Positions 4,822-62,692 of a DNA stretch of 64,000 nt are shown in pieces; position 1 is the stretch's first letter, and each line of letters opens with the position of its first letter. The notes beneath the pieces were generated by a model, which worked only from the letters and a program-made list of their open reading frames with translations, was not told the origin of the DNA and did no database searches. The translations under genes and the position numbers were made by a program. The DNA is from Antedon mediterranea. Lineage: Eukaryota; Echinodermata; Crinoidea; Comatulida; Antedonidae. Location: contig NC_092672.1 in assembly GCF_964355755.1 (NCBI RefSeq), forward strand, positions 25,540,501-25,604,500. The letters are read 5' to 3'.

Positions 4822-7800
4822 ATGAATAGGCCTACAAGTCGACGATCTGACATCAGTGAAGCTGATAATGACTGTTTGGCTGAGATGGAACTCTCCCGTT
4901 TACAGAGACAGTACAGGATTCTTGAAAACGACAGAAAGGCCTACTTCGAAGAATCGCAAAATCTTGTTAGAAAACAAAAGTAACATTTCCACTTTCTCGC
5001 AAACTATTGTTAGAAACGAAAATAACACTTCCTCTTTGTAGCAATCTCTTCTTAGAAAACAAAAAGTAATACTTCCTTTTTGTCGCAAACTATTGTTAGA
5101 AACAAAATGTAATACTTCCTCTTTATCGCAAACTTTTATTAGAAACAAAAGTAATACTTCATCTTTGTCGCAAACTCTTATTAGAAACAAAAATAACATT
5201 TCCTCTTTGTCGCAATCTCTTCTTAGAAAACAAAAAAGTAATACTTCCTCTTTGTCGCAAACTATTGTTAGAAACAAAATGTAATACTTCCTCTTTATCG
5301 CAAACTTTTATTAGAAACAAAAGTAATACTTCATCTTTGTCGCAAACTCTTATTAGAAACAAAAATAACATTTCCTCTTTGTCGCAATCTCTTCTTAGAA
5401 AACAAAAAAGTAATACTTCCTCTTTGTCGCAAACTATTGTTAGAAACAAAATGTAATACTTCCTCTTTATCGCAAACTTTTATTAGAAACAAAAGTAATA
5501 CTTCATCTTTGTCGCAAACTCTTATTAGAAACAAAAATAACATTTCCTCTTTGTAGCAATCTCTTCTTAGAAAACAAAAAGTAATACTTCCTTTTTGTCG
5601 CAAACTATTGTTAGAAACAAAATGTAATACTTCCTCTTTATCGCAAACTTTTATTAGAAACAAAAGTAATACTTCATCTTTGTCGCAAACTCTTATTAGA
5701 AACAAAAATAACATTTCCTCTTTGTCGCAATCTCTTCTTAGAAAACAAAAAAGTAATACTTCCTCTTTGTCGCAAACTATTGTTAGAAACAAAATGTAAT
5801 ACTTCCTCTTTATCGCAAACTTTTATTAGAAACAAAAGTAATACTTCATCTTTGTCGCAAACTCTTATTAGAAACAAAAATAACATTTCCTCTTTGTAGC
5901 AATCTCTTCTTAGAAAACAAAAAGTAATACTTCCTTTTTGTCGCAAACTATTGTTAGAAACAAAATGTAATACTTCCGCTTTATCGCAAACTTTTATTAG
6001 AAACAAAAGTAATACTTCATCTTTGTCGCAAACTCTTATTAGAAACAAAAATAACATTTCCTCTTTGTCGCAATCTCTTCTTAGAAAACAAAAAAGTAAT
6101 ACTTCCTCTTTGTCGCAAACTCTTGTTAGAAACAAAAGTAATACTTTCTCTTTGTCGCAAACTCTTGTTAGAAACAAAAAGTAACACTTCTTCTTTGTCG
6201 CAATCTCTTCTTAGAAAACAAAAAGTTATACTTCCTCTTTGTCGCAAACTATTGTTAGAAACAAAAAGTAATACTTCCTCTTTGTCGCAAACTCTTGTTA
6301 GAAACAAAAAGTAACACTTCTTCTTTGTGGCAAACTCTTCTTAGAAAACAAAAAGTAATACTTCCTCTTTGTCGCAAACTCTTGTTAGAAACAAAAAGTA
6401 ACACTTCCTCTTTGTGGCAAACTCTTGTTAGTGAACAAAAAAGTAACACTTCCTCTTTGTCGTAAACTATTGTTAGAAACAAAAATAACATTCCTCGTTG
6501 TCCCAAACTATTGTTATGAAACAAAAAGTAATATTTCCTCTTTGTCGCAAACTATTGTTAGAAACAAAAATAACAGTTCTCCTTTGTCGCAAACTATTGT
6601 TAGAAACAAAAATAACTATTCCTCTTTGTCGCAATATCTTCTTAGAAAAACAAAAAGTAATACTTCCTCTTCGCCGCAAACGCTTGTTAGAAACAAAAAG
6701 TAACACTTCCTATTTGTCGCAAACTATTGTTAGAAACAAAAATAACTGTTCCTCTTTGTCGCAATCTCATCTTAGAAAACAAAAAGTAATACTTCCTCTT
6801 TGTCGCAAATTCTTCTTAGAAAACAAAAAGTAATACTTCCTCTTTGTCGCAAACTCTTCTTAGAAGACAAAAAGTAACACTTCCCCATTTGTCGCAAACT
6901 CTTGTTAGAAAACACATATTAACACTTCCCCTTTGTCGCAAAATCTTGTTAGAGAACACATATTAACACTTCCCCTTTGTCGCAAAATCTTGTTAGAGAA
7001 CACATATTAACACTTCCCCTTTGTCGCAAACTCTTGTTAGAGAACACATATTAACACTTCCCTCTTTGTCGCAAACTCTTGTTAGAGAACACATAATAAC
7101 ACTCCCCCCTTTGTCGCAAACTCTAAGAGAACAAATGTAACATTTCCTCTTTGTAGCAAACTATTGTTAGTAAACAAAAAATAACATTTGTCAGTATCTT
7201 GCTTTTTTTTAAGAGTCCACTTGGAGTCTTTGAAGGAAGAAAACACCGAGATAGAGACAAACTTAAAGCTAGCCACCAGTACAGCAAATGATAAGAAAGA
7301 CAGAGCGTGCTCCAAGAAAATCAATTCTTTGGTTTGTGACCATGATGAATATTTAAATATGATTGATACAGAGAAACAAGCTATCAAGGAGTTGGATAAA
7401 GAGGTTAAATTAGTTATCAAACTATTTTCTATTTATATTTTTTGTTTTGTTTAATTATTTGTGTAGACAAGGCTTTAGGGGACGTTACGTTACTGTACCG
7501 CAGGTGTTCTATTGCATTTATTTTTTAATGGAGTCTTTAGTTAGTAAATTTGAAGAAAGTGATTTTTCTTTTCAGAAGGAAATAAAATAATTTGATAAAG
7601 TAATACTGTAGATTATGTGTTGAAATAGAGAAAAAAATACACCTAATGATAATTAAATAAGCATTAAGTTCCAAGCCCGTTCTTTAAAAAATGGTCGGAT
7701 AATCTGGTATAATTTTGATTCTCTACCTTAATTGCATCAATCAATGCATAGCATAGCATGCATAGCAGGACAAACATCTTGCCTACTTAGCTCTCTGATG

Positions 7801-10800
7801 CAACGCTATCGTCCATGGGCCGAATCTTCCCGGGCAGTTAATAAATTAACTTCTGTCAAGAAATTCACCGACTCAAATGATTGTTTTACAGATTTTGATT
7901 ATGGAAGATAAAGTTAATGATCAATACAAATCCCTGGGAGGTAGCAGTCGAAGTCAAACACGTCATTTAATTACGGACAAACGCTTCACAATTCTTGAGA
8001 ATCGGCTCCATAAGGTAAATATACTTCAACCATTACAATTAAACGACTACGGTACTTTAAGAATACATAATTCAGAAAACATAAAAAACAACCCATATGA
8101 GCATTCTCGACTTGCTTTTCTTAAACTTTAGGTTCCAAATAATGTGATTATATGCATATCCTTATATGGATACGATGATATCATACCAATACCACATAAC
8201 ACTTTTTTTCAAACTAGTTTGATAGTGTAGACAGAGATTTAGACACTTTTTTAAACATATTTTGAGAGAAATTCTAGTAAGAACGTTGAATCGATTGCTA
8301 TGCTTGTGTTGCCTTAGAGTTTATGGGACTACGGGGTTGTTGGGTTATTCATCAAATTGGAGCCAAGTCACTATACCGAAGGGTGTAAAACTTTAAAACA
8401 TTTCCCACATTACAAACTGTGCGTTAAAACTTCTTGTAACATGTAGACCTCGATAGGCTTGTAATTCTGGTCCGGAGCAGTTGCAGCCAAGGCAGGCCTT
8501 GTTTCAGCAGCCACAAAATAACCGATAATTAACCGATCCAAATTAACCGATAACATTCCTATGGAAACGGGGTTTAATCGATTCCGCTTAACAAACAATA
8601 GGCCTAATTGTAATTAATTGTAACTGATTGGTTTATAAATTAACCGATAATTGTGTTACTGGTTTGAAAAAATGACCTTAATTTATCCATGATTATGTTC
8701 AATGTCATTGTTTTCGATCAAAAACAAAATCTCTCTTGTTGCAGGCAACCATTGGTTTCAACGACATGTTAAGTGCAAACGCAGAATTACGATGCAACAT
8801 TGACCACCTGACGCAAGAACGGCACATATTCGACTCGTTGTACAAAAAGTTATTAAAAGAACAACAGAATATCAAGCGAGAAATGAACGAAGTTATACAG
8901 CAGTCGACGGCAGCTTATGATGCAAGGTAATTAATTATACCATGGCAATCTAATATCATGATGCTGAACTCCGGAGATCAAAGGGTTTATATGTGGCTGC
9001 GACATGTACACGATCAGTTCCACGCCCCTTGGAGACACAGCACCGCGGAGAATATGTAGGCCTATAGTGTACTGCACTGTTGGTATTGTTTCGCACCCAG
9101 GCATAAGATCAAAGGACTGTTACGAGTTCCTACCTTGGCAAGGCGAGCTCATGTTCTGTTGTTAATGTTAGATTAACATCGGCGGAAAAATACATTTTCG
9201 TTGTGGTCAGAGAATGTATACTTAGCATAACAAAAATCTGTCTTGAGTAAAATAAATCGCATATGCGCACTGATTGATTTGACAGTTAGGGGCAGCTGAC
9301 TGGGTTCTGTTTCCTTTAGTTCTTTCTTTCTTTACCCAGTCATCAGTAGTTGATTGGGTTCTGTTTCCTTTAGTTCTACTTTCTTTACCCAGTCAGCAGT
9401 AGTTGATTGGGTTCTGTTTCCTTTAGTTCTACTTTCTTTACCCAGTCATCAGTAGTTGATTGGGTTCTGTTTCCTTTAGTTCTACTTTCTTTACCCAGTC
9501 AGCAGTAGTTGACTGGGTTCTGTTTTCTTAGTTCTACTTTCTTTACCCAGTCAGCAGTAGTTGATTGGGTTCTGTTTCCTTTAGTTCTACTTTCTTTACC
9601 CAGTCAGCAGTAGTTGATTGGGTTCTGTTTCCTTTAGTTCTACTTTCTTTACCCAGTCAGCAGTAGTTGACTGGGTTCTGTTTCCTTTAGTTCTTTCTTT
9701 TTTTACTCAGTCAGCAGTAGTTGATTGGGTTCTGTTTCCTTTAGTTCTACTTTCTTTACCCAGTCAGCAGTAGTTGACTGGATTCTGTTTCCTTTAGTTG
9801 TACTTTCTTTACCCAGCCAGCAGTAGTTGATTGGGTTCTGTTTCCTTTGGTTCTACTTTCTTTACCCAGTCAGCAGTAGTTGATTGGGTTCTGTTTCCTT
9901 TAGTTCTACTTTCTTTACCCAGTCAGCAGTAGTTGACTGGGTTCTGTTTCCTTTAGTTCTTTCTTTTTTACCCAGTCAGCAGTAGTTGACTGGGTTCTGT
10001 TTCCTTTAGTTCTACTTTCTTTACCCAGTCAGCAGTAGTTGATTGGGTTCTGTTTCTTTTAGTTCTACTTTCTTTACCCAGTCATCAGTAGTTGACTGGA
10101 TTCTGTTTCCTTTAGTTCTACTTTCTTTACGCAGTCATCAGTAGTTGATTGGGTTCTGTTTCCTTTAGTTCTACTTTCTTTACCCAGTCAGCAGTAGTTG
10201 ACTGGGTTCTGTTTCCTTTAGTTCTTTCTTTTTTTACCCAGTCATCAGTAGTTGACTGGGTTCTGTTTCCTTTAGTTCTACTTTCTTTACCCAGTCAGCA
10301 GTAGTTGACTGGATTCTGTTTCCTTTAGTTCTACTTTCTTTACGCAGTCATCAGTAGTTGATTGGGTTCTGTTTCCTTTAGTTCTACTTTCTTTACCCAG
10401 TCAGCAGTAGTTGACTGGGTTCTGTTTCCTTTAGTTCTTTCTTTTTTTACCCAGTCATCAGTAGTTGATTGGGTTCTGTTTCCTTTAGTTCTACTTTCTT
10501 TACCCAGTCAGCAGTAGTTGATTGGGTTCTGTTTCTTTTAGTTCTACTTTCTTTACCCAGTCAGCAGTAGTTGATTGGGTTCTGTTTCCTTTAGTTCTAC
10601 TTTCTTTACCCAGTCAGCAGTAGTTGACTGGGTTCTGTTTCCTTTAGTTCTTTCTTTTTTTACCCAGTCATCAGTAGTTGACTGGGTTCTGTTTCCTTTA
10701 GTTCTACTTTCTTTACCCAGTCATCAGTAGTTGATTGGGTTCTGTTTCCTTTAGTTCTACTTTCTTTACCCAGTCAGCAGTAGTTGATTGGGTTCTGTTT

Positions 10801-13800
10801 CTTTTAGTTCTACTTTCTTTACCCAGTCAGCAGTAGTTGATTGGGTTCTGCTTCCTTTAGTTCTTTCTTTTTTTACCCAGTCATCAGTAGTTGACTGGAT
10901 TCTGTTTCCTTTAGTTCTACTTTCTTTACCCAGTCATCAGTAGTTGACTGGATTCTGTTTCCTTTGGTTCTACTTTCTTTACCCAGTCAGCAGTAGTTGA
11001 TTGGGTTCTGTTTCCTTTAGTTCTTTCTTTTTTTACCCAGTCATCAGTAGTTGACTGGATTCTGTTTCCTTTAGTTCTACTTTCTTTACCCAGTCATCAG
11101 TAGTTGACTGGATTCTCTTTCCTTTAGTTCTACTTTTTGTACCCAGTCAGCAGTAGTTGACTGGGTTCTGTTTCCTTTAGTTCTACTTTCTTTACCCAGT
11201 CAGCAGTAGTTGACTGGATTCTTTTTCCAGTTCTTACTTTCTTTCTTTACCAAGTCATCAATAGTTGACTGGGTTCTAGTTTATGTTTGTATCGTTTTAA
11301 TGTTTGTGAGGAATTATTCGCGTGTAAGTTCATATTATTCTAGTCATATAATATTTTCATTGATTTATATTCATTTGAAATTAAGGGACGAAGCCCAGAC
11401 AAAAATGATGGCACTACGTGACAGAAGTGACAAGGAACAAGCACAATACAACTTAGAATTGAAGGAGTTACATCGAATCATTGATCACGACAGAAAGTTG
11501 AAGGAGTTTATGGCAATTAAGGCACAGGAAAGAATGGAAATAAAGGCGATTGAAGCGACAAAGTGCAAAAAGAAAGGTAAACTTAATTATTACTTTATTA
11601 TTTTCTTTTCTTGTATGTGCTTAAATTATTTTTGGTTGGTGCGTATAAACGTCTCCAAATAGAATCCATACCAAGAAAATTGCCTCTGGTCGGAGTCTTT
11701 CACTCACCTGGTGAGTTTTCTCTATGAAAATCGTTAGAGACACCACGAAACTACATGGTTTTAATTGTACGCGTTCAAACTTTGATAAATGATAGTACGC
11801 GCGCGTCTACTTCCGCATAATAATTCAAAAGTTTACAATAATGTTATTAGGCGTGCGTATAGAAGAGATACACTATTGACGCTCATACAATTTTTACTAC
11901 GCGCCACGCAGTTATTAGGTCAAAAATGTCAGTCTGCGCACGCTCTGAGAAATGCATACGCAGAATGACTACTATTATAAACAACTAGTGTGGAGTCACC
12001 TGGCGCGTCGTGAAAACAGAACGTCATTAGCAGTTTTGATTGCGCACGATAAGCCGTGTCCGGGACAAAAAATACATAAAATGTTATTAATAAACTCAGA
12101 ATTAAATATTCTTTACCTCAGATGAGGAAAAATCCAACACTAAAATTCAGGAAGAAGAGATAAAATCTTTAGATGTAATTTTTGAAAGAATTAAAGAGTT
12201 CACTGGAGAAAAAAGCCTTGATGGCCTGGTTCGAAAATTCATTGAAAACGAAGACAAGAATTTCGCATTGTTCAACTATGTGAACGAGTTGAACAACCAA
12301 GTAGAAATGCTACAAGACCAAATACAGAATATCGAACTGGATATTGATGGCTTTAAAAAACAGGGAATGAAACTAGATAAGCATAGACATGCCATTATGA
12401 AAGATTTAGAGGTAAGATAAGACCACCAGAAGGTGTGGCATGATTCTGCTCCTTCGTGGCCTAATTGTCTAATCTAATAAGATTCTGTCGTCTTAAATCG
12501 TGAGACAAGGAATAAAGAGATCTTTCAACACTAGGTATAGAGATCTTTCAACACTAGGTTTTAAGACCACATCAATATTTTGGCCTGAGTGAAAAAAATT
12601 CACGTAGGCTACTTGTTGAAGAGAATCTGTAAGGCTGTCTTTTTTGCTCTCTTCTAAAACGTAAGTCAGACAGAAGCAGTCCATTTTTATAGCCGCAGGC
12701 CTATAGGCCTATAGACTAAATACATCATATCTTACAGGCTAAGTGTACAGAAAAAACGAAAGCAGGCGATGGATTTGAAACAAAGTTGAAACACTTAAGC
12801 AAGAATTTGGGACAGCTGAAGGGAGCAATTCTAAGTTTGTTCCGTAAAGCGGAATGTGACGAATCGACCATTACTGAAATGTTAGGTTCGGTGGCTGAAA
12901 TTGACGACAGCAATGTCATGCTGTATTTAGGCAGTATTGAGCAGAAAGTTAGCGATCTTCTTCTGTCACAGAACTACTTACAACATAAGGTACGAAATCA
13001 TTAGAAAACTGTGCGGCGGTGGATAACCGCTAGATCTGATACCGCGCTCACATTTAAAATTCTCAATGAGTATAGAAATTTTCATATATTTCTAATTTAT
13101 AATATATATAAAAAAATAGAGAATGATTTAATTTAATAGGATGTACGTTTACTATAATATATATAAAGAGATCGTGGTGTGTTTTTTTTCTATCACACAT
13201 TCCTTGCGTTTCAACGAAACTTTCAGCTGATATTGTGTCTCTCCTGAAATTAAGTACACTGCAAAATTGAGAAAATGGTAAAAGATAATAATCGTTTTTT
13301 AGAATGATGGGCCGGCAGTTAATCAACCAATTCTTAACTAATATTAGCAATCCCTGAACTGTTTCAGAACTCATGGATCTGCATCTGAACCAATTAATTT
13401 CATTTCAGGTTTATTGATATTTCATGCAGTACTTGCAGTAAATTGTTACATCAATTTTGAAACAAAGGAATTCTTTAAATACACATTTTTATTAAAATGA
13501 CAAGTAAAAAGAGAAAAGATCATGAGAAAATCCAATTAATTATATTTTTTTAGTCTACTGAGAAAAGTAAACAAGAAACGACGACAGCACAGGTTCAACA
13601 AACCAACAGCATTTGCAACAACACCAAGTTGATAAAACATCCACAAACTGACGTCACAATAGTACCGCCCTCACTTGAGTATGTATCACTGCGCATTGCG
13701 CTTAACATATTTCGTGCTAAAATCTTTAAAGATTCTGTTGCGCTTTCTTTAGGCTTATTATGTTGTCTGTTTCTTTCTCCTAAACTTTTCACATTCCAGT

Positions 13801-40800: not shown

Positions 40801-43800
40801 TTTGCTGACCGCATACATTGCATATTTATAATAAGCATTTAGCCTACCATTACCAGACGTATATAATAGTTTAAACTTTCTTTCAATCCTTTGTGTACAA
40901 ATGGATTTAAAACATAAAAAACGATACTTCAATTGCAATTCTTGCATATTATTTGACAAGACCCAAGGCCCATGATGAATGACAAAAATGACATGTTTTT
41001 TTTTGTTAATGTAGGCCTATGACTAGCCTAGTAAGCCAGGCCTACTAGTAAGCCTACAGTAGGAATAGCGCTTGAAAACGGTCGCGATAAAATCAACATC
41101 CGGTATTTTGTATGGAGTACCACTAGATACGCTTTTTATCATTATTAGTTACGTTTGATATCGGTGGCATTTTATTTTGGTCACGCTAATGTGTATGGTG
41201 CGCACTAGATACATTTTTAATGAAAACGCTCATTATGTTAATTTTAGTTACTTTTTAATATAGAATTTCTATTAATGCTATTGACCTCGTAGTGTAGGCT
41301 GGTATGTCGTTTATATTTTTTGTTAAAAGCAAACTTTGACTTTATTTCATATCTTGATAATATAAGGAACGAAAAAAAATATGTTGCCATTTTTTCCAAA
41401 GACATTTAAAGGACCAAATTCAAGATGGCCGCCAACATTCAAATAACCCTATTAAAAATCAGAATATCACCAATAATACAAATTATGAATGTGGAACAAG
41501 TCCGTTTTGATGGTATTACTGTACCCATTATACAACAATCCTAACTATGTAAAGCGATAATCTGTCAGCCATCTTGGATTTCAAAATGGCCGCCACTAAA
41601 AATTAAATTCTTTAAATAATTTTTTTTAAATATGTGTGCATAAATTGTTGTTTGTACACAATGTTCTAAAATTGTCACTTCTCACATGATTGTAAATTGT
41701 AAATACTAGATGGCACGCTCGCTTCGCTCGCGTACCATCTAGGGGTGCTCACAGATGGTTCTCGAATACAGTAGAATCCACGGACGGGGACTTTTTTGGG
41801 ACACTAAACAAAAACGGAAGTGTCCCCCTAATTGGGGTATTCAGAAATAGAGACAACAAAACCAATACTGGATTCCATAAAGGACAATTAATTTATGTGG
41901 ATTAAAGAAATTAGGGAGAAATGGAAATGTATGTACGGGAATTGGGCGGCGGCACGTGGTGGTGGTGATGGAACCGCAGTAATAAAGTTGATTGTATTTA
42001 TATATTATAAGAACCAAACTAAATAAATAGACCTAGACATTCTGCGAAATGGAAATCGGAAATTCAAGCTCCTATTCAGTGAAAAATTAAACTGTAGTCT
42101 ACCTAAATATTTAGGGCAAATCATCGGTTGTTATGGAACGCCGTTTACGCAACATTTCGATGATATGAATTTTATGACGTGATATGTGAATGAAATGCAT
42201 CGATATGAATTGAATGGCGTGATATATGAATGAAATGTTTTGAATTGAATGCTTTGAATTGAATGTTTTGAATGAAATGTTTTGAATGAAATGTTTTGAA
42301 TTGAATGTTTTGAATAAAATGTTTTGAATGAAATGTTTTGAATGAAATGTTTTGAATGAAATGTTTTGAATGAAATGTTTGAATTGAATTGAAAAGTCAA
42401 ACTATTGGCGGCGTATGTCATTCCCGCTCGCGATTTTTTTTCAACCTCTTAATAGGCCTAAGCATGGGTACCCTCATTTCCTTTCAACGCTGTCATCAAT
42501 ATGAATCCTTTACAGAGACTCCCTAACAGACCTGAAACATTGGAATACATATTTCCGAACCCAGGTCTGTTAGGATTCTCTGTAAAGGCAGCGTGGAAGA
42601 AAGGAGATGAGGGTACCCAGGCTTAGGCCTAAGAGGTTGAGAAAATAATCGCGAGCGAGAATGACATACGCCACCAATAGTTTGACTTTTCAATTCAATT
42701 CAAACATTTCATTCAAAACATTTCATTCAAAACATTTCATTTAAAACATTTAATTCAAAACATTTCATTCAAAACATTTCATTCAAAACATTTCATTCAA
42801 AACATTTCATTCAAAATATTCAATTCAAAGCATTCAATTCAAAACATTTCATTCATATATCGCACCATTTAATTCATATCGATGCATTTCATTCACATAT
42901 CGCGTCATAAAATTCATATCATCGAAATGTTGCGTAAACGGCGTTCCATAGGTTGTGGTGTTGAACTTCCTGTAAACATTTGTGTGAACCAAACTGGGTC
43001 GAATTTCTGTCATGAGTACTGATTTGTTGGCCTGTGATTTATGACGCCTAAGGGATCTATCTAGACTTATTTTTTAGAATAATGTACGTACCTGTCAGAT
43101 ACAATTGTCTTGTGTCGTATAATAAATAAGTACTGTAATAGTTACTGAAGTTACTATTACAATCTCGTCAATGAAAACACGAAAATGTATATGCACTTAC
43201 TTATGAAAACGTATACAGTATTACTCAGTTATTGAAACAGTAGGTTTAAAAAAGTTTCGTTTGTCTGTAAAATGATGTAATCAAGCTGTTTACATGAGTC
43301 TTAATTTATAAGCACATCAATAATAAAATAGTTTATCTATCCTGTAATTGGCAAGATTATGGTCGCTGTTGAATGAAATAAAGCCAATCGGTATCATATT
43401 TGTACAGAAACGTTTTCGCGGCCGAAGGGTGTAACCTAAATTCGTTGTATTATCGTCAAGAACTAACTGTAACTAAACTTACATAGAAAGTAGGGTATCA
43501 TAAATTTGGCCTTAGCACTCGGGGGAGTGGCTAAGATGAAGTCCGTGGGACTACTAAATATAAATTGTAATGAACCTCGAGGGACATAAATAGGAATATT
43601 TCATGTTTCATTATCAATGTATAATAAATGGAAACTGTTTACCGATTCAAATAATAGAAATTGGTTTTTAACATTTTCCGAACCTATTGTAAGTTTATTC
43701 TCAAAGGGCCCATATATTTACCTACCGTATGTGTTAAACCAAGGCCTCATAAATTTACCTACAGTACTTGTGTTAAACCAAACTGGATGTTCCATTCATC

Positions 43801-46800: not shown

Positions 46801-49800
46801 TGTTGAGGCAAGTGCTTTTGTGAACTTGTATTACCTATACAACCAGTGACACAAATATCTTAAATGGAAAACATCTCTAAAGGACAGAAGCACACTAATT
46901 CTGCTTTCTCTCTACAACTTGCTTCTACAAATGCAGATAGAGAAAGAGATTTTCTAAGTGAAGTATCATTTTGTTTGAAAGAGGCTGATCATAAAGATAT
47001 TAACTTGAATACAGAGAGTCGACAAAATCTAAATGATGTGGTTAAACTATATCCCTATATATGTATATGAGAGGACATGTATGTGTGGGACTTGCTGGAT
47101 TTACATCAATTGATCAGGGTCATTGAGCATGGTATCATTGGAATAACACAAATTAATGATTTCATCAGAGCTGTCAAATCTAGTTAACATTTAAAGAGAG
47201 ATGATATCCCGATTAATGAAGAATGCTGCAATTCGCACAAAGGTGTTTGTTGGCCATGGCATGATGAAATTGGACAGAAAATGTTTGAGGCATTGGTAAA
47301 AGTCTTGTAGAAGGAAAACTGTCTATATGGAATCCTAAGAAAAAGACGAATATTGGCAAAAAATATATATGACGGTGAATACAGGTGACAAACTTATCAA
47401 AGTAAAAGAAGACTCCTATAGAGATTATTTGCCGGTGAAATGAGGTATTTCAGTTATTTTGCCAATTTGTTTCTGAACAAGGTTGTTGGGAATGCAGATC
47501 AGTCTGTGGAAGTTCAATGGATACAGTAGTAGAGAACGAAGGAAGGTCAACTTACTGTATCGCATTCAAGATTAGAAATATTTCATTGAAGGACTTTGGC
47601 AGAGTTAGTTGTCATTTAACTGAAGAAGTTTATGAGATGTTTTAATATGAAGAAGTGTTCTGTCAGTACTGTAGACCTCCTGATGGTCAACATTTTGTGT
47701 TAATCACCATGTTGTTGTCATAAGCATATCATTTTGTATATTTCAATCTAATTTTATTTAACTTATACAAGTTTTAATAGAAATTTAACCCATTTTTTAA
47801 AAATGGCGGCCATTTTAAAATTCAAAATGGCCGCCATTTTGTGTTAATCACCAATGTTGTTGTCATAGGCCTATCATTTTATGTGATTTCAATCAACGTC
47901 ATAACTTGCACATGTTTTAATAAGAAATTTAATCCATTTTTAAAAAATGGCGGCCATTTTGAAAATCAAAATGTCAGAATACTAATGAATATCTCCTAAA
48001 ACGCTAATCGTCGTTAGACATTGCGCGTCTCACTTGTGTTCGCCACTCAGTACGTTTTTGAGCAAGCATGTGTATAGGTCCGCGTGTGAAAAGTTCTGTT
48101 TCCTTTTTTATGTTTGCCATCCATGTCGTTTTTGGTCTTCCTTTTGGTTTTTTGGTCTTTCTCTGAGCCTCTCCGAGTGCGATCTTAGCTGGTGTGTTTT
48201 CATTTAAACGGAGCAGGTGACCATACCATGTCAGCCTTCTTTTCTTTAGGTTCTTACTCCACTCATTTTCTCCTGTTCTTTTGTACAAATCTTCATTTTT
48301 TATTTTCTCCGGCCACCTTATACCTATTATTAGGAATTTTCTTTGAAAGACATCGATTTCGCTTTTTAGTGATGCTGTCATTGTCCACAGTTCACAATTA
48401 TACAGAAAGATGCTTGTAATGTATACGTTGAAGACTCTCATTTTCAGGTTTATTGTTATTTTTCTATTTGGAGTATGAATACTAATGAAAATAGGTTTAT
48501 AATAATTCTTATATAGCAGAGAACCCATATGAACTTAAAAAAAAAAAAATCAGAGAGAGAGAAACAGGTGTTTTTTCAAAAGAGATTTAAAGGAGGAGAA
48601 ATTGTAAGAGTTACGAATGCTTAAAGCCCCATTCCCTACGTTTTTTAGATCTAATTTAAGATCACAAACTATATTTAATGTAAAAATAATACTATATGGT
48701 CCTATTGCGATAACTTTTTTCGTCTTTAAACGGTTAAAAATGTGAAAAATAAATCGATTTTAATAATTATAGCGGCCCGCTATAAATCCCAAAATGCATT
48801 GCGCGCGGATTGATATTTTTGTTTTTCACCTGTAATTCGCCCACTTTTCGATCGATCGTGAAGCCAAAACAAATGGAAGACTCCTAACTTTTCAGCGAAA
48901 ATACCGGGTGTTCCCCAATTTGTATCAACGGAGTCTGGCAAAAATAGAAAGACAATTAATGCAGCAACTATACAACGTCAGGCTAGGTATATAGCTAGCG
49001 TACGATGTTCGTACGTTACCGATGTTTACCAGCTAGGCCTACAAAACTAAGCCTAGCTAGGCTAGGCCTGAGACCGTCCACGAGAGGTCGATCGCCGCGA
49101 GCTACTTAGGTAGTGCATTGTTTCTCACTTTTTATCATAATTTACCATAAAACGTACATTTAAGACAAGGAATGACATGGTTTAATGTTTTTAAAGTGAT
49201 ATATATGTATTATTTTCCAAAAAACGTCCAAAATTGCAGGGAAGGGGTCTTTAAAGGTAGAGAATTAAAGAAAGAAGGAGCATTGAAACTAAAAGAAAGT
49301 TTAAAGATTTCAAGGTACAGTGTAGCTACATGATCATAGAAGGCGCCAATATGGCTTATTTGGGGGTTTATTTTAGTAACTCGCCTTTTAACCATCAACA
49401 TAATATGATCATTTTACTAAAAACTATATTTTAAACATTAGAAATAAAAATATCACGTGATGTGCCTCAACAAAAATTATTATGCACTGATATTTAAAAA
49501 TTTAGATTTACGAACGGCATATGGATGTGAGACTTACTTTTAAATTATTTAATTAAATGATTATTATAAATGAAGAAATAATAGATATATCAAATTAATT
49601 AAAAACTATGGTATCACCATATACATCGTTTCATAAAAACACGTGCAGGAGGCCTAGCCTACAGTATAGACATTTCAAACGTATGGTTATTAGTAATAGA
49701 CGTCATTTTACCTGGCCATCGACAATGATTGTATGTGTTTTGTCCATGATTTGATACGTACACACTAACAAGTGCGTGTTTTTTTTTAAAGGGGAATCCC

Positions 49801-51011: not shown

Positions 51012-54000
51012 GGGTGTGTCGAAAGCGAAGACCTCGAAAGCGAAGATCGAAGACCGAAGACCTCGAAAGCGAAGACCCTACGAAATGGTAGTGTGCACAA
51101 AATCCGACCAAAATCGATGATAACACCTTGAATTTACAGATTCTAAAAAAATATTTCGATTTTAATCGTTATGTTATCAAAAAACATGACTTTATCTATG
51201 AACAAGCTCACGTGTTTTCGCCAATGGAGTTAATATGTGATATAGTTTTACGAACAAACACATCGCGCTATTTGCAAGGCGACGGACACACAAGAAGGAC
51301 CTCGAATTGAATGCAATATTAAATGTCACTTTTTCCGATAACTTTGTATTGTAGCACACGTCGCCTACAATTTAAAACCATAGCCAACTGTATAGAAAAG
51401 TATAGAAATAAACTACACAGTAAAGTAAATAAATTAAAGTAAGTAAATTGTAAGAAGTAAAGGATGGCGATAGGCATTTAGCCTAATTTTAGAGCCTATA
51501 TAAAAAGTGTCCGTATCATAGATTTTACACTTGTTTTTAAAAATGTTATACGTACGCGTGAATACAACTAAGAGATCCTTTTTTTTGCATTTAAATATTA
51601 TTATGTTGATGTATGTTTATTATCTATAATATTTGCCTATTTGTATGAATAAATACAATAAGATATTTATTTTCCTGGAGTTATTCTGTATAGTATTTTA
51701 AACTTGTACATTTTCCCCATTGTAGCCAATACTACAGTATTACTGATTTAATTATTCGCCAGTTTAAAAATGTTTTTCTAATGTATTCATAATGGACAAA
51801 TAATATTATCAGTATCGGTTAGTGTGGTTGGTGAAGCGACAGTACTATGTAAAGAAGAAAAATGTAAAATAAATATTTCATTAACCAACGTATGAACTAC
51901 TAAACGAAAACATCCTGCCGCAACGTATTGTATTGAACGCGCGCGCAACATAAGAAAATACTCTTCTATCTATTTTTGCATCCCCTCTTACGATCGAGAA
52001 TCATGAAGAACGTAAAGCAGTCGGCGTTGAACACGTCGGTTCCCACTTGTGATGACACGCAAATTTGTTCTTAAGGCGCACTTTGCGTCGATCTGGATAC
52101 TAATTCCAGCTCTTAAAATATTTCCCGGGTCAAAATTGGCAGAATATATTCAAATTATGATTTGACAAGAAGTAAAAAGAACGAACGATATAGGCATCAG
52201 CGTTCTGCAAATTTTGGTTATAAATCGGTCGTTTCCTGCGACATATCATCTGTTTCACGGCTTCCATAATTCCGAATAATTATGCCATTATGTGAACGTT
52301 CACAAAGACAAAAGCCATTCAAAACAAAGATTGAAATAAAAAATATTCCCTCCAAAATTACAAGTTGCCGATTTTGTTACAATATGATTAGTGACGATAG
52401 TGTGTTCACGTTTAATTTATTTTTCAATATTAAAACGGGTGTTTATTCATATCGGTATTACGTTTACCGACACTGTCAAAAGATTAGTTTAATGAAGTTC
52501 CAGTTCCGCCAACCACAATTTTCCTCATCATCAAATAAAAAACTGACTTTTGTTTTCAAGCATTGCCCGTGGTGAATACAAAAAGAGATACTCTCTATAA
52601 ATCTTTATTAAGTGATGGTGAATGTTTATCGGGCTTAACCACTCTAACCCCCAACCTTCTATCTCACAGGCTTGTGGTTGAGACGACTATTCAACAGTCT
52701 CCCGATTTTCAACAGATTGTCGACGTCCCGCTTCTAAATGTTTGCATCCCTGCCATGAGTGTCCATTAACAAAAGAAAACATAACATTTTAATTAAGAAA
52801 CAGGTTACCGGTTGTTGACCATTTAAATATAGAATTGACACTAATACAAACAAATCTAACAGAATTATACTATTATAACGGGTTAACGATCAAGAAAAAT
52901 GTTCAGAGTGTGATGTCTATCGTTCGTTCTACAGTATTAGCCTTTTGTCAAATCATAATTTGAATACAGTATTATTTTTTACTTTGACAATACAAAGATA
53001 TAAAATAAAGTTCCGTTAGTTCACGGTAAGCTGTTGGGACGAACTGTCATTGGCCCGAGAAATATTTTAAGAGCTGAAATTGGTTTTCAGATCGACGCAA
53101 AGTGCGCCGTAAGAAAATAACGTTGCGTGACGTGTCATCACAAGTGGGAACCGATGTGTTCAACACCGTTTCTGCTTTATTACGTTCATCATGATCCTCG
53201 ATCTTAAGAGGGGATGCAAAATAGATAGAAGATAGATAGATAGATTTTCTGTTGCGCGCGCCAATGATACGTTGCGGCAGAATTTGTTTTGTTTAGTGGT
53301 TCATACGTTGGTTTTAATGAAATATTTATTTTCCTTAAAAGGAAAATAAATATTTCATTAACCAAAAAAAATTTACATTTTTCTTTACATCATCGGTCGC
53401 TTCTCCAACCACACTAAATATTCTGATACTGATATAGGCCCTATTATTTGTCTATTATGAATACATTAGAAAACATTTTGAAACTGGCGATTAAGTAAAA
53501 TAGCAATAGTTACAATGGGAAAATGGAAAAGTTTAAATACAATACAGGAAAATGAATATCTTATTGTATTTATTCATACATTTAGATAATAAACAATAGG
53601 CAAATATTATAGATAAAAAACACATAGCAACATATTTAAATGCAAAAAAGATCTCTGTACCTAACATTTAAAAGCAAGTGTAAAATCTATGATACGGACA
53701 CTTTTTATAGGCCTATAGGCTCTAAAATAAACCTAAATACCGGGCCTACCGCCATCCTTTACTTCTTACAATTTACTTACTGTAGTTTATTTCTATACTT
53801 ATAAACAATTGGCTATGATTTTAAATTGTTATCGGAACAAGTGACATTTAATGTGCGAGGTCCTTCTTGTGCGTCCGTCGCCTTGCAAATAGCGCGATGT
53901 GTTTGTTCGTAAAACTATATCACATATTAACTCCATTGGCGAAAACACGTGAGCTTGTTCATAGATAAAGTCATGATTTTTTATAATATAACGATTAAAA

Positions 54001-54157
54001 TTGAAATATTTTTTCAGGATCTGTAAATTCAAGGTGTTATCACGATTTTGTATGATTTTGGTCGGATTTTGTGCACACTGCCATTTCGTAGGGTCTTCGC
54101 TTTCGAGGTCTTCGGTCTTCGATCTTCGCTTTCGAGGTCTTCGCTTTCGACACACCC
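51012..54157. mobile_element. 3.1-kb long-TIR element (Mutator-like/foldback) with 9-bp target duplication
   Basis: Ends GGGTGTGTCGAAAGCGAAGA and complement. Inverted arms of about 1.2 kb each (51012 to about 52200; about 52915 to 54157) share, among much else, TCACGTGTTTTCGCCAATGG, GACGCAAAGTGCGCC-like words and CAAATCATAATTTGAATA. The outermost parts contain four TCGAAAGCGAAGACC-like repeats. Outside lie GGAAAGATA (51003-51011) and GGAAAGGTA (54158-54166), a 9-bp duplication with one change. Very long TIRs with 9-bp duplications are characteristic of MULEs; no MULE transposase is encoded. Confidence 0.88.
52282..52575 (+). CDS. Hypothetical 97-aa ORF in the unique centre of the long-TIR element
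   Basis: ATG to TGA, starting MPLCERSQRQKPFKTKIEIK and ending KLTFVFKHCPW. Residues about 30-75 contain CRFCYN and YRHCQ, a C-x2-C ... H-C arrangement that could bind a metal, within a Tyr/Phe-rich segment. No relative is recognised. A second frame (to 52769) overlaps but lacks an ATG at its start. It might be a captured host fragment, an accessory TE protein, or chance. Confidence 0.3.
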   Translation: MPLCERSQRQKPFKTKIEIKNIPSKITSCRFCYNMISDDSVFTFNLFFNIKTGVYSYRYYVYRHCQKISLMKFQFRQPQFSSSSNKKLTFVFKHCPW

Positions 54158-56518: not shown

Positions 56519-57344
56519 AGATTGTGGCGCAAGGATTTTCCCGATGAGGGAGGGAGAGGTGGAGAGCGCAGCCAGCATCAATTGGCTGGGCCATCAATGG
56601 GAGCGCACCCAGAGGTTCCGATAATATTATACCGGTAAAGGGTAGTTTTACTCACTTTTAAAAATGAAAATCCTTGAAACTGCACTCAATGGGGTATTGT
56701 TTTATATTAGGAAATATCATCATATTATTGTCTATATACATAAAAAATAGCCAATTGTGGAGAGGGGATGGGGGGACGGACAGACTCCCTCACCCTTCCC
56801 ATTTGATCTCCCATCCCTATACCACCCCTCCCCACTGGCACCACCAATGTTGTAATATATTGTTATAACAGTACAAATGTAAATGAACTGATTTATTAAT
56901 AGACACCGTAATCCTATGTGTTAAGCATAGGAAGGACTGCGTTTTATATATTATTATAACAATAGGGATATATCTAGATACTTAAACATTTGTTTTTCGG
57001 CCATTTTCTAATTAACAGCACTTAAAATAATGTGTTTATTGTAGGTCAGATCTTCGAAATTGTAAAGAAATATATAAACCATTGTAAAAACTGTTATAAA
57101 GTGGTAAAGATCTATCATTTATGTTTTTTTGTCCTTTTCTAGGAATTTTCGCCATTGGCGGCCATTTTGTCCATACCTGGATTTTTCTAGACTTTTAGTA
57201 TATTCATATAGGGACCTTATAGAAATGCATTGTGGTGAAATAAATTCTGTTGCAATTTTTTCAACCATATTTCATAGTTTTCCTGTACTATAAGTGTGCC
57301 ACCGATCTAAAGGTGTGATTCCAAATAAATAAATGGGTGCAGGT

Positions 57345-58163
57345 CAAGTCGGCCCCAAACCGTCTCGGCCAAAGTCAAGTCGGCCCCACGTCAAGTCGGC
57401 CCCAAGTCAACTCGGCCTCAAGTCAACTCGGCCTCAAGTCAATTCGGCCTCACGTCAACTCGGCCAAAAACTAATCGGTCAACTCGGCCACAATAAAGTA
57501 TGGAACGCAAAAAGTGCTTAATATTATTACGATTCTTACTATCCACGTTTTAAAAAAAATGAAGAAATAAAAAATATATCATATCATATAAAAAAATGAA
57601 CTCATTGCCGATATGAATAGAAGTACCCGCGTGTTACAAAAAACACGTGCAGGTACCGTATTTTAGGAAATCGAAGACGGAGGCCTACGTTCCACCATTT
57701 GGCCATAGAAAAATGAACGTACATCGTTTTTGTGCATGATTTGCGTTTTTAAAAAAGGGGAATCCCCCGGTCAGCGAAAAACACGTAGCAGTTGTAGATA
57801 TCGAAAAAGGCTGGCAAACGCGCAGGGAGGCTCAGCTACGAAATTTTATTAAACGTAAATAAAGGAAAGTTGGTGAAATCATTCCTATTTTTTTGGCTAA
57901 ATATATTATTGTCTAAATAATAATTAATTAAAAGTCAGAATTATTCATAGTTAAAAAATTGTGAAGAAATATTATTTTATCAATCCCCTTCATTTGCACT
58001 TTTTGCGTTCCATACTGGGCCGAGTTGAACGATTATTTTTTTGGCCGAGTTGACGTGAGGCCGAGTTGACTTGAGGCCGAGTTGACTTGAGGCCGAGTTG
58101 ACTTGAGGCCGACTAGACTTGGGGACGACTTGACTTTGGCCGAGACGGTTTAGGGCCGACTTG
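57345..58163. mobile_element. 819-bp element whose TIRs are tandem CAACTCGGCC repeats
   Basis: The left arm consists of about nine 14-bp units of the type GTCAAGTCGGCCCC or GTCAACTCGGCCTCA (57345-57490), followed by AGTATGGAACGCAAAAAGTGC. The right arm carries the complement (57990-58163). The 500-bp centre has no ORF and shares AAAGGGGAATCCCC with 49790. AAATAAATAAAT lies on both outer flanks. It abuts the outer element on one side and the VPS29 promoter on the other. Confidence 0.85.
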
Positions 58164-61300: not shown

Positions 61301-62692
61301 GTTTAAAATTTATGTTTATGAAGATATAACCAAAAGTAAAAGCTTGATGTTAAAAAATTGTGCGTAGATCACATAACAATTTATTGCATACATTTTATGA
61401 AGTGCTCATGGACTAAGGTCAACCAAAATCCATTTGCTAAAAGACAAATGCACAGACAAATAAACCAGGGTGACCACATAACCTCCTTGGCAGGTAATAA
61501 CTTATTGAACATTTTATTTTCCAAGAACATAACTTACCCTGAGCAGAAAGTGGTGACAGTTGGTCAGTTTCGTATTGGTATTTGTCATGGTCATCAAGTT
61601 GTCCCCTGGGGTGACATTGACAGTCTTGCTATGGTACAGAGACAACTAGATGTTGATATACTAATCTCCGGCCATACTCACAAATTTGAAGCTTTTGAAC
61701 ACGAGAATAAATTTTACATCAATCCAGGCTCCGCTACAGGTGCTTACAATGCATTGGAAAGGTATGTTATGAAATTTACTTTCATTTTTAAATACATTTT
61801 TGGTACAGTAGTCTTTGCTAGTACCGCATTTTTTTTGGTTTTCCTATTCAAAGAATTTAGACCTTACATAAATGTCTGGTTCAGAGAATTACCTGCCAAC
61901 TTGCGCAATTTTGTTGGGTGTCGCCTAATGAGGTTTATTGCAAATAGCTTGATTTCGCAATGACCGTCATTGCACAATGCATGATGGGAAGGGTTTTGGA
62001 GCAATAGCGCCACTGCATAAAAACTTCATATACTGGTGGTGACATTATTGCAGCTCCCAATTCCTTCCCATCATGTATCGCTCAAGCTATTTGCGTCAAA
62101 CCTTAAAACCAATCTCTAATTCTTCCAATTTAATGTAATTTTCACCAGATTTTATCTTAATTTTCACCTACTACTACTGTACTGATTTTACTATTTTCCT
62201 ACCAAATACTCAGATTTATGAATGAATTTGATTGATTTGATTGTTATTATTTTTTATTGTATTCATATTTTTGCTAACATCGCGAAAAAACTAAATTTAA
62301 AAAAAAGGCATTTTGAAATTGAATTTTGCTACCAACAGCAAACTTCGCCAGTTTGTCTTGTGGAAATTCGGCATTTTTTTGTTGAATCTCTTCAGGTTTT
62401 TTTGGAAATTTTTTTTAATTTACCAGATTTTTATGACCCAGGGGTGGTAGGTCTGAACCCACCCCTTACTTTGGGCTCTAGAGTACTATGTAACAGTTCT
62501 AGACATTTTCTTCAAAAGTTTTACCATTTTCTAAGTTTCATCAAATTTCAATATATATATTTCTCTCTTTTCAGCAATATTGTGCCAGCGTTTGTACTTC
62601 TAGATATCCAAGCTGCTACCGTGGTAACGTATGTTTATCAACTCATAGGTGATGATGTCAAAGTTGAACGAATAGAATATAAGAAAAACTGA
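58398..62692 (+). CDS. VPS29: VPS29 retromer subunit, 4 exons
   Basis: Metallophosphoesterase-fold scaffold of the retromer/retriever complexes, which recycle cargo from endosomes. Exons: 58398-58400 (ATG only), 60080-60271, 61526-61761, 62575-62692; phases 0, 0, 2 fit. The product is 182 aa, the usual length. Conserved blocks: [13 protein letters not shown] (2-14), [118 protein letters not shown]. The start was chosen because ATG|GTAAGT at 58398 joins TTAG|TTGGTG at 60080 to give MLVLVLGD, the same single-codon first exon known for the short human isoform. It is divergent from RAD9, 7.7 kb away. Intron 2 holds a SINE. Confidence 0.96.
58491..58505 (+). repeat. Poly-G tract (15 G)
   Basis: G run in VPS29 intron 1, 90 bases after the donor, within a GC-rich patch (58470-58560). 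Confidence 0.9.
58771..58790 (+). repeat. (GT)10 microsatellite
   Basis: Ten uninterrupted GT dinucleotides in VPS29 intron 1. Confidence 0.95.
59486..59950. mobile_element. Inverted-repeat element in VPS29 intron 1
   Basis: CCATTGTCTGACAGACAATT, AAGTACAGTATTTG and CTTTAAATATTACA at 59490-59560 are mirrored at 59880-59945 (ACTGTAATTTAAAGC, TTAAATTGTCTGTCAGACAA). Related but diverged sequence is at 36105-36390, and possibly 15400-15610 (AACCCATTGGCTGGCAGCC). Confidence 0.7.
60600..61290. repeat. Inverted/direct ACGTAAAATCCAGG words bracketing a SINE
   Basis: GCGTAAAACCTGGGATTCGTAAAATCCAGG, in two pieces near 60612, and ACGTAAAATCCAGG, ACGTAAAATCAATCG, ACGTAAAACATAGG near 61242-61290 are repeats of one word at both ends of a 0.7-kb segment. 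It may be an element interrupted by the SINE. Confidence 0.45.
60832..61018 (+). mobile_element. tRNA-derived SINE fragment
   Basis: GAGTTCAATTCCCGACAACT matches the pol III B box (GGTTCGANTCC) with tRNA-like context. It is followed by the SINE-body phrases CACTCAGCTGTAAATCAGTA, CCTGGTTGAAA and AAAGGCGGCGTGGAAAGGAA, ending near CGGGACTCACCTTTACC. The A box is not evident, so the 5' end is missing. It lies in VPS29 intron 2. Confidence 0.65.

Follow-up and report, generated by a model that had tools for sequence, protein, structure and literature searches.

Results

The window, by which we mean the whole 64,000-nt stretch of DNA that was analysed, contains a gene that was read over seven exons, with a tandem array in intron 1 and another in intron 4 (Table 1). 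When the seven exons are joined, they give a single open frame of 462 aa, with AG before exons 2–7 and GT after each exon. The best matches of this frame in the PDB are CCDC63 (216 bits), an outer dynein arm docking protein (7moq, 171 bits), and CCDC114 (163 bits), and the gene was therefore classed as ODAD1/CCDC63 type. The coding part of exon 1 is 158 nt long and ends in phase 2. Its donor stands in the context AAA/GTAACA, and the acceptor of intron 1 was read as TTTTTTTTAAG/AGTCC. Joining exon 1 to exon 2 gives RKQKVHLESLKEEN, and the joined sequence aligns with the homologs without a gap.

The array in intron 4 (9297–11282) consists of 37 copies of a 53-bp unit with inverted unit ends (TGACTGGGT...ACCCAGTCA). 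It was considered as a border-derived array and rejected, as its best score against the 14 ends of exons 1–7 was 10.5. Other features were noted farther along the window. Paired short tandem arrays, mutually inverted and with units of 14, 15, and 16 bp, are located at 42161–42924, 51019–54150, and 57343–58144, as in fold-back elements. An open frame of 176 aa on the reverse strand (48007–48534) resembles by eye the end of a LINE reverse transcriptase, and one of 207 aa on the forward strand (61340–61960) we take to resemble an exon of VPS29.

Table 1. Features of the ODAD1/CCDC63-type gene in the window, and exon-border arrays at other loci of the genome.
Feature	Position in window	Strand	Basis or description
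Exon 1, coding part	4822–4979	+	Open frame; homology to CCDC114, CCDC63, and docking-complex chains
Mirage-type array, 52 units of 40–45 bp, the last one degenerate	4954–7196	+	TRF (4954–7180) and unit cutting
Unit 1 of the array: final 26 nt of exon 1 and opening 17 nt of intron 1	4954–4996	+	Unit cutting, alignment
Donor of intron 1 (GTAACA)	4980–4985	+	In-phase join to exon 2, gapless against homologs
Array part built of four-unit blocks, about 172 bp	5039–6112	+	Matches of a 172-bp query; identity peaks at offsets 4, 8, and 12
Intron 1 3' tail, 17 nt: pyrimidine tract and acceptor AG	7197–7213	+	Direct reading
Exon 2	7214–7403	+	AG/GT borders, frame, homology
Exon 3	7892–8014		AG/GT borders, shared open frame
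Exon 4	8745–8926		AG/GT borders, shared open frame
Exon 5	11386–11576		AG/GT borders, shared open frame
Exon 6	12122–12411		AG/GT borders, shared open frame
Exon 7	12738–12989		AG/GT borders, shared open frame
Case a: DNAH1, donor			61-bp unit, 19.1 copies, 98%; unit of 49 nt exon and 12 nt intron
Case b: kinesin, acceptor			70-bp unit, 20.5 copies, 96%; includes the first 20 nt of the exon, 19/20 identical
Case c: MYO6, donor			58-bp unit, at least 13.6 copies (end of locus reached), 98%
Case d: contig 3 myosin paralogs, five loci, donor			82–83-bp unit of exon end and donor
Case e: myosin (L068), acceptor			52-bp unit, 2.5 copies, 89%
Case f: probably another myosin, putative exon, acceptor			150-bp unit, at least 2.2 copies, 96%

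Intron 1 (4980–7213) is almost entirely taken up by its array, which is followed by the 17-nt acceptor tail. TRF called the array at 4954–7180 with a period of 42 and 51.6 copies, together with further periods of 172 and 343. A 172-bp block used as a query matched six places, including its own, at 98–100% identity. Units 4, 8, or 12 places apart are on average more alike (identity 0.88, 0.87, and 0.86) than those at the other offsets up to 11 (0.80–0.83). The four-unit block structure hints at turnover of the array. Furthermore, the proximal units score 17–20 against the exon end, while distal units (6803 and 6892–6980) score 21–22 and are thus equally close to the exon or closer, so the array has been reshuffled since its start. 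Unit 1 shares about 80% identity with the rest of the units. It differs from the unit majority at six aligned sites, and at two of these its state occurs in no other unit. When the genome (354 Mb, 18 contigs) was searched with two array queries, matches were found in intron 1 only, at 22 and 17 places. Because the search leaves out very common words, the absence of the unit elsewhere is not proven, and a dispersed satellite family is unsupported rather than excluded.

In the preliminary description of this DNA, the 43-bp unit had been lined up with exon 1's final bases and donor; the register between them proved to be exact. Unit 1 consists of TCGCAAAATCTTGTTAGAAAACAAAA, 26 nt belonging to the exon, followed by GTAACATTTCCACTTTC, 17 nt belonging to the intron. 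The terminal 26 nt of exon 1, aligned to every unit, reach a score of 22 against the rest of the array, while 1,929 random 26-mers taken from the 64-kb window gave a maximum of 15 and a mean of 8.1 against the array. This match is far beyond chance. In the window outside the array, the same 26 nt gave nothing above a score of 14. When the 14 ends of exons 1–7 were compared with the array, the 3' end of exon 1 alone matched (29.5; next best 10.5). The exonic part of unit 1 encodes SQNLVRKQ, which is aligned with TVALIKKQ of docking-complex chain 7moq (3/8 identical, the rest similar) and with VHQRINKQ of CCDC114, a moderate conservation. In-frame coding that is shared with homologs and stands at the right place would be unexpected of an unrelated satellite, and it is from this coding content that we infer the direction, from the exon to the array. 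With the exact register, the homolog-shared coding, and no like match elsewhere in the window, there is good support for the earlier suggestion that exon 1's end and donor seeded the array.

Dozens of decoy donors had also been ascribed to the intron. They are real in the sequence, with GT at the donor place in 34 of the 51 further units (33 GTAA and one GTTA), but the remaining 17 units lack it. When scored by a donor table, 26 of the decoys equal the real donor. Any downstream donor brings in a TAA at codon 54, because the stop lies at the border itself. Exon definition and nearness to the cap may contribute to the choice of the first donor.

Do similar arrays occur at other exon borders of this genome? 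We screened 85 loci of about 3.2–3.5 kb each, centered on the best exon matches to tektin (5 loci), dynein heavy chain (30), kinesin (30), and myosin (20), together with one extension (L036), for 237,270 distinct bases in all, and TRF was run on the loci. For two tektin exons, the best match was 8snb, a sea urchin entry, at 221 bits (next entry 139) and 239 bits (next entry 147), in keeping with an echinoderm or close relative as the host; GFP and COX1 gave no match in the genome, a result of little weight because the GFP control was likewise negative. Six cases were found (Table 1, cases a–f), a minimum, as part of the TRF rows was read. The exon junction in the DNAH1 case aligns gaplessly with DNAH1 (181 bits), the kinesin case has a Pfam kinesin match of 100 bits, and the exon in the MYO6 case matches myosin VI at 54 bits. 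PDB and Pfam searches both gave no confirmation of the putative exon in case f (L079).

The five contig 3 myosin paralogs have 1, 1, 1, 2, and 3 full copies of the exon end with its donor. In two of them (L083 and L086), the single full copy is accompanied by a short intronic echo of about 30 nt, as read by eye; L082 is without the echo. This comparison stood in for a relative with the single ancestral copy, and gain and loss are unpolarized in it. The exon concerned has weak PDB matches to myosins (E 0.006–0.01) and no match in a Pfam search, and a clear myosin exon adjoins it.

In a first test of exon ends, covering the central exons of 65 loci, L043 was flagged with a score of 22.5, and L009 with 16.0 through an AT-rich match. 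A broader test took in 162 exons with 320 ends. Here the kinesin end scored 27.0, above all 1,402 null pairs (null maximum 22.0), and the end in myosin L068 scored 18.0, between the 99% (14.0) and 99.9% (21.5) null levels. Three more ends scored 14.5–16.5; chance alone would put about three ends above 14.0. The cases other than kinesin and L068 come from TRF rows read by eye and have exons outside the HMM lists. Two arrays were set aside after reading, namely that of L030/L009 (79 bp), which starts 96 bp past the HMM-matched exon end, and that of L029 (15 bp). The arrays in L007, L037, L040, L041, L042, L046, and L066 were read by eye, and no entry into an exon was seen.

Discussion

A 2002 paper on Adh reportedly deals with mirages. 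The preliminary description knew of no named case with the structure seen here, which was mistaken, since the amphioxus mirages (PMC3087553, PMC3902484) have such a structure and the human ABCA7 VNTR (PMC5954066) nearly so. Mirages are minisatellite-like tandem duplications across an exon–intron border, at the donor or the acceptor, with splice signals in many of the units (PMC3087553). The genes are Adh3, the globins BflGb6 and BflGb9, TnC, and PGBD5 (PMC3087553, PMC3902484), the last being added by the lancelet PGBD5 paper, which cites TnC (PMC3902484). The units are 10–72 bp in Adh3 and 150–160 bp in the globins, the BflGb6 mirage has 3–6 units, and intron gain is proposed as one consequence of mirages (PMC3087553). 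The preliminary description saw a possible threat to splice fidelity in such an array; in the amphioxus mirages, regular splicing is described as undisturbed (PMC3087553, PMC3902484).

The array in intron 1 has the same features. Its tandem units span the border, with the true border among them (26 nt exonic, 17 nt intronic); they are of minisatellite size and numerous (40–45 bp, 52 units); and splice signals are present in many, not all, of them (GT in 34/51 further units). At the level of sequence, this is clearly a mirage-type array. The host here is an echinoderm, however, and there are about 52 units compared with 3–6 in BflGb6. Moreover, splicing and length variation were demonstrated for the amphioxus mirages, whereas the ODAD1 array is known from the sequence of one assembly.

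The VNTR in intron 18 of human ABCA7 is an intronic array of many copies of a 25-bp unit that includes the donor of exon 18; a cryptic donor one unit downstream is used, and a minor isoform retains one unit (PMC5954066). It is like the ODAD1 array in being a many-copy intronic repeat that takes in the donor of an exon (PMC5954066). By its description, however, the ABCA7 array begins at the GT and has a unit without an exonic part, whereas 26 of the 43 nt of unit 1 in ODAD1 are exonic, and the ODAD1 array does not start at the donor GT inside the intron. Another case resembles this one in a tandem duplication across an intron–exon border, but a new intron resulted there (PMC4974935). As regards intron gain by tandem duplication, the coding sequence of ODAD1 was found to be continuous with the homologs. 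Exon-border arrays in sea urchins or other echinoderms were not described in the part of the literature that our search covered (including PMC2206037). Both the echinoderm host group and the recurrence within one genome appear to be new.

We suggest, with a probability of about 85%, that the array is a mirage-type minisatellite born of a duplication of the exon 1/intron 1 border, and that it probably has no function of its own. A 43-bp segment across this border would have been duplicated in tandem, and the duplication would have been tolerated, since all additional copies are spliced out when the donor nearest the exon is used. Growth of the array may then have followed by further duplication, through slippage or unequal exchange, with a four-unit block amplified at a later stage. 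Coding selection and its role as the donor in use would both preserve unit 1, while the remaining units drift. The exact register, the homolog-shared coding, the nested repeats, and the recurrence at other exon borders of the genome, where the coding content in DNAH1, kinesin, and MYO6 is strongly conserved, support this origin, all of them features of sequence, and so do the paralogs with 1 to 3 copies. The two private differences of unit 1 count against it, as do the unpolarized gain and loss and the short intronic echoes among the paralogs. We also infer the neutrality of the array and the use of the first donor. Random tandem duplication, hidden by splicing, suffices as the explanation, and border arrays fit a simple null model in which such duplications survive at borders because splicing hides them.

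Could exon borders be especially prone to duplication in this lineage? A mechanism that targets splice sites, such as one acting through R-loops or U1-marked nascent RNA, might produce several cases at both donors and acceptors within a small sample, as were found here. We consider it unlikely. Among 98 introns between consecutive HMM exons, there were 11 arrays with 20–250-bp units, and one of these reached an exon, compared with 0.62 expected from random placement of the seeds, in a count that involves small numbers and approximate exon ends. No splice-site-aimed process is therefore called for on these small counts, but this counterevidence is limited, as a moderate excess is compatible with such small numbers.

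Could the repeated donors themselves be functional? They might form a reservoir of sites for U1, or they might tune how much the gene produces, through unproductive splicing that ends at the codon 54 stop, which comes with every downstream donor. The donors that keep GT, and the 26 that equal the real donor by the donor table, would be in line with this, but the loss of GT in 17 of 51 units gives no sign of upkeep, and comparable arrays are seen both at acceptors and in genes unrelated to this one, so that we regard such a function as quite improbable. We give the lowest probability to the reverse order, in which an array of outside origin was present before the exon end came to resemble it, whether through gene conversion or because a splice site shifted. 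Array ends can in principle be homogenized, and unit 1 does have about 80% identity to its fellow units, but the exonic part encodes a homolog-shared stretch, the exon junction is gapless, the unit was found at no other place in a genome search skipping very common words, unit 1 retains states absent from the array majority, and the copied part in DNAH1 and MYO6 is strongly conserved protein.

How common, then, are exon-border arrays of this border-duplication type? We lean slightly toward the view that hundreds or more exist in this echinoderm genome, at donors and acceptors alike. The cases read by eye from TRF rows give no rate, and the figure of hundreds is therefore an extrapolation. The mirages that we found in print are from amphioxus, and several in an echinoderm genome, at donors as well as acceptors and reaching about 50 copies, would extend the host range. 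If border arrays are indeed common, mirages would be no peculiarity of amphioxus, and this genome would offer a natural setting for testing how one site is chosen by the spliceosome among tens of near-identical ones. The echinoderm arrays would offer many natural constructs with competing, near-identical splice sites.

The screened loci also gave some observations on the gene families themselves. Contig 3 has at least 19 matches to one myosin head exon in a span of about 5.5 Mb (L082–L086, G000:C3:19.6–25.2 Mb), a dispersed amplification of a myosin gene. Two series of dynein heavy chain exons (L022–L025, G000:C1:2208666 and C1:2590790) score almost equally and lie about 380 kb apart, and they are perhaps a recent duplication. 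In a kinesin gene, a 29-bp array of 49.6 copies is located at 1781–3222 of L041, and its unit is also present at the start of L038.
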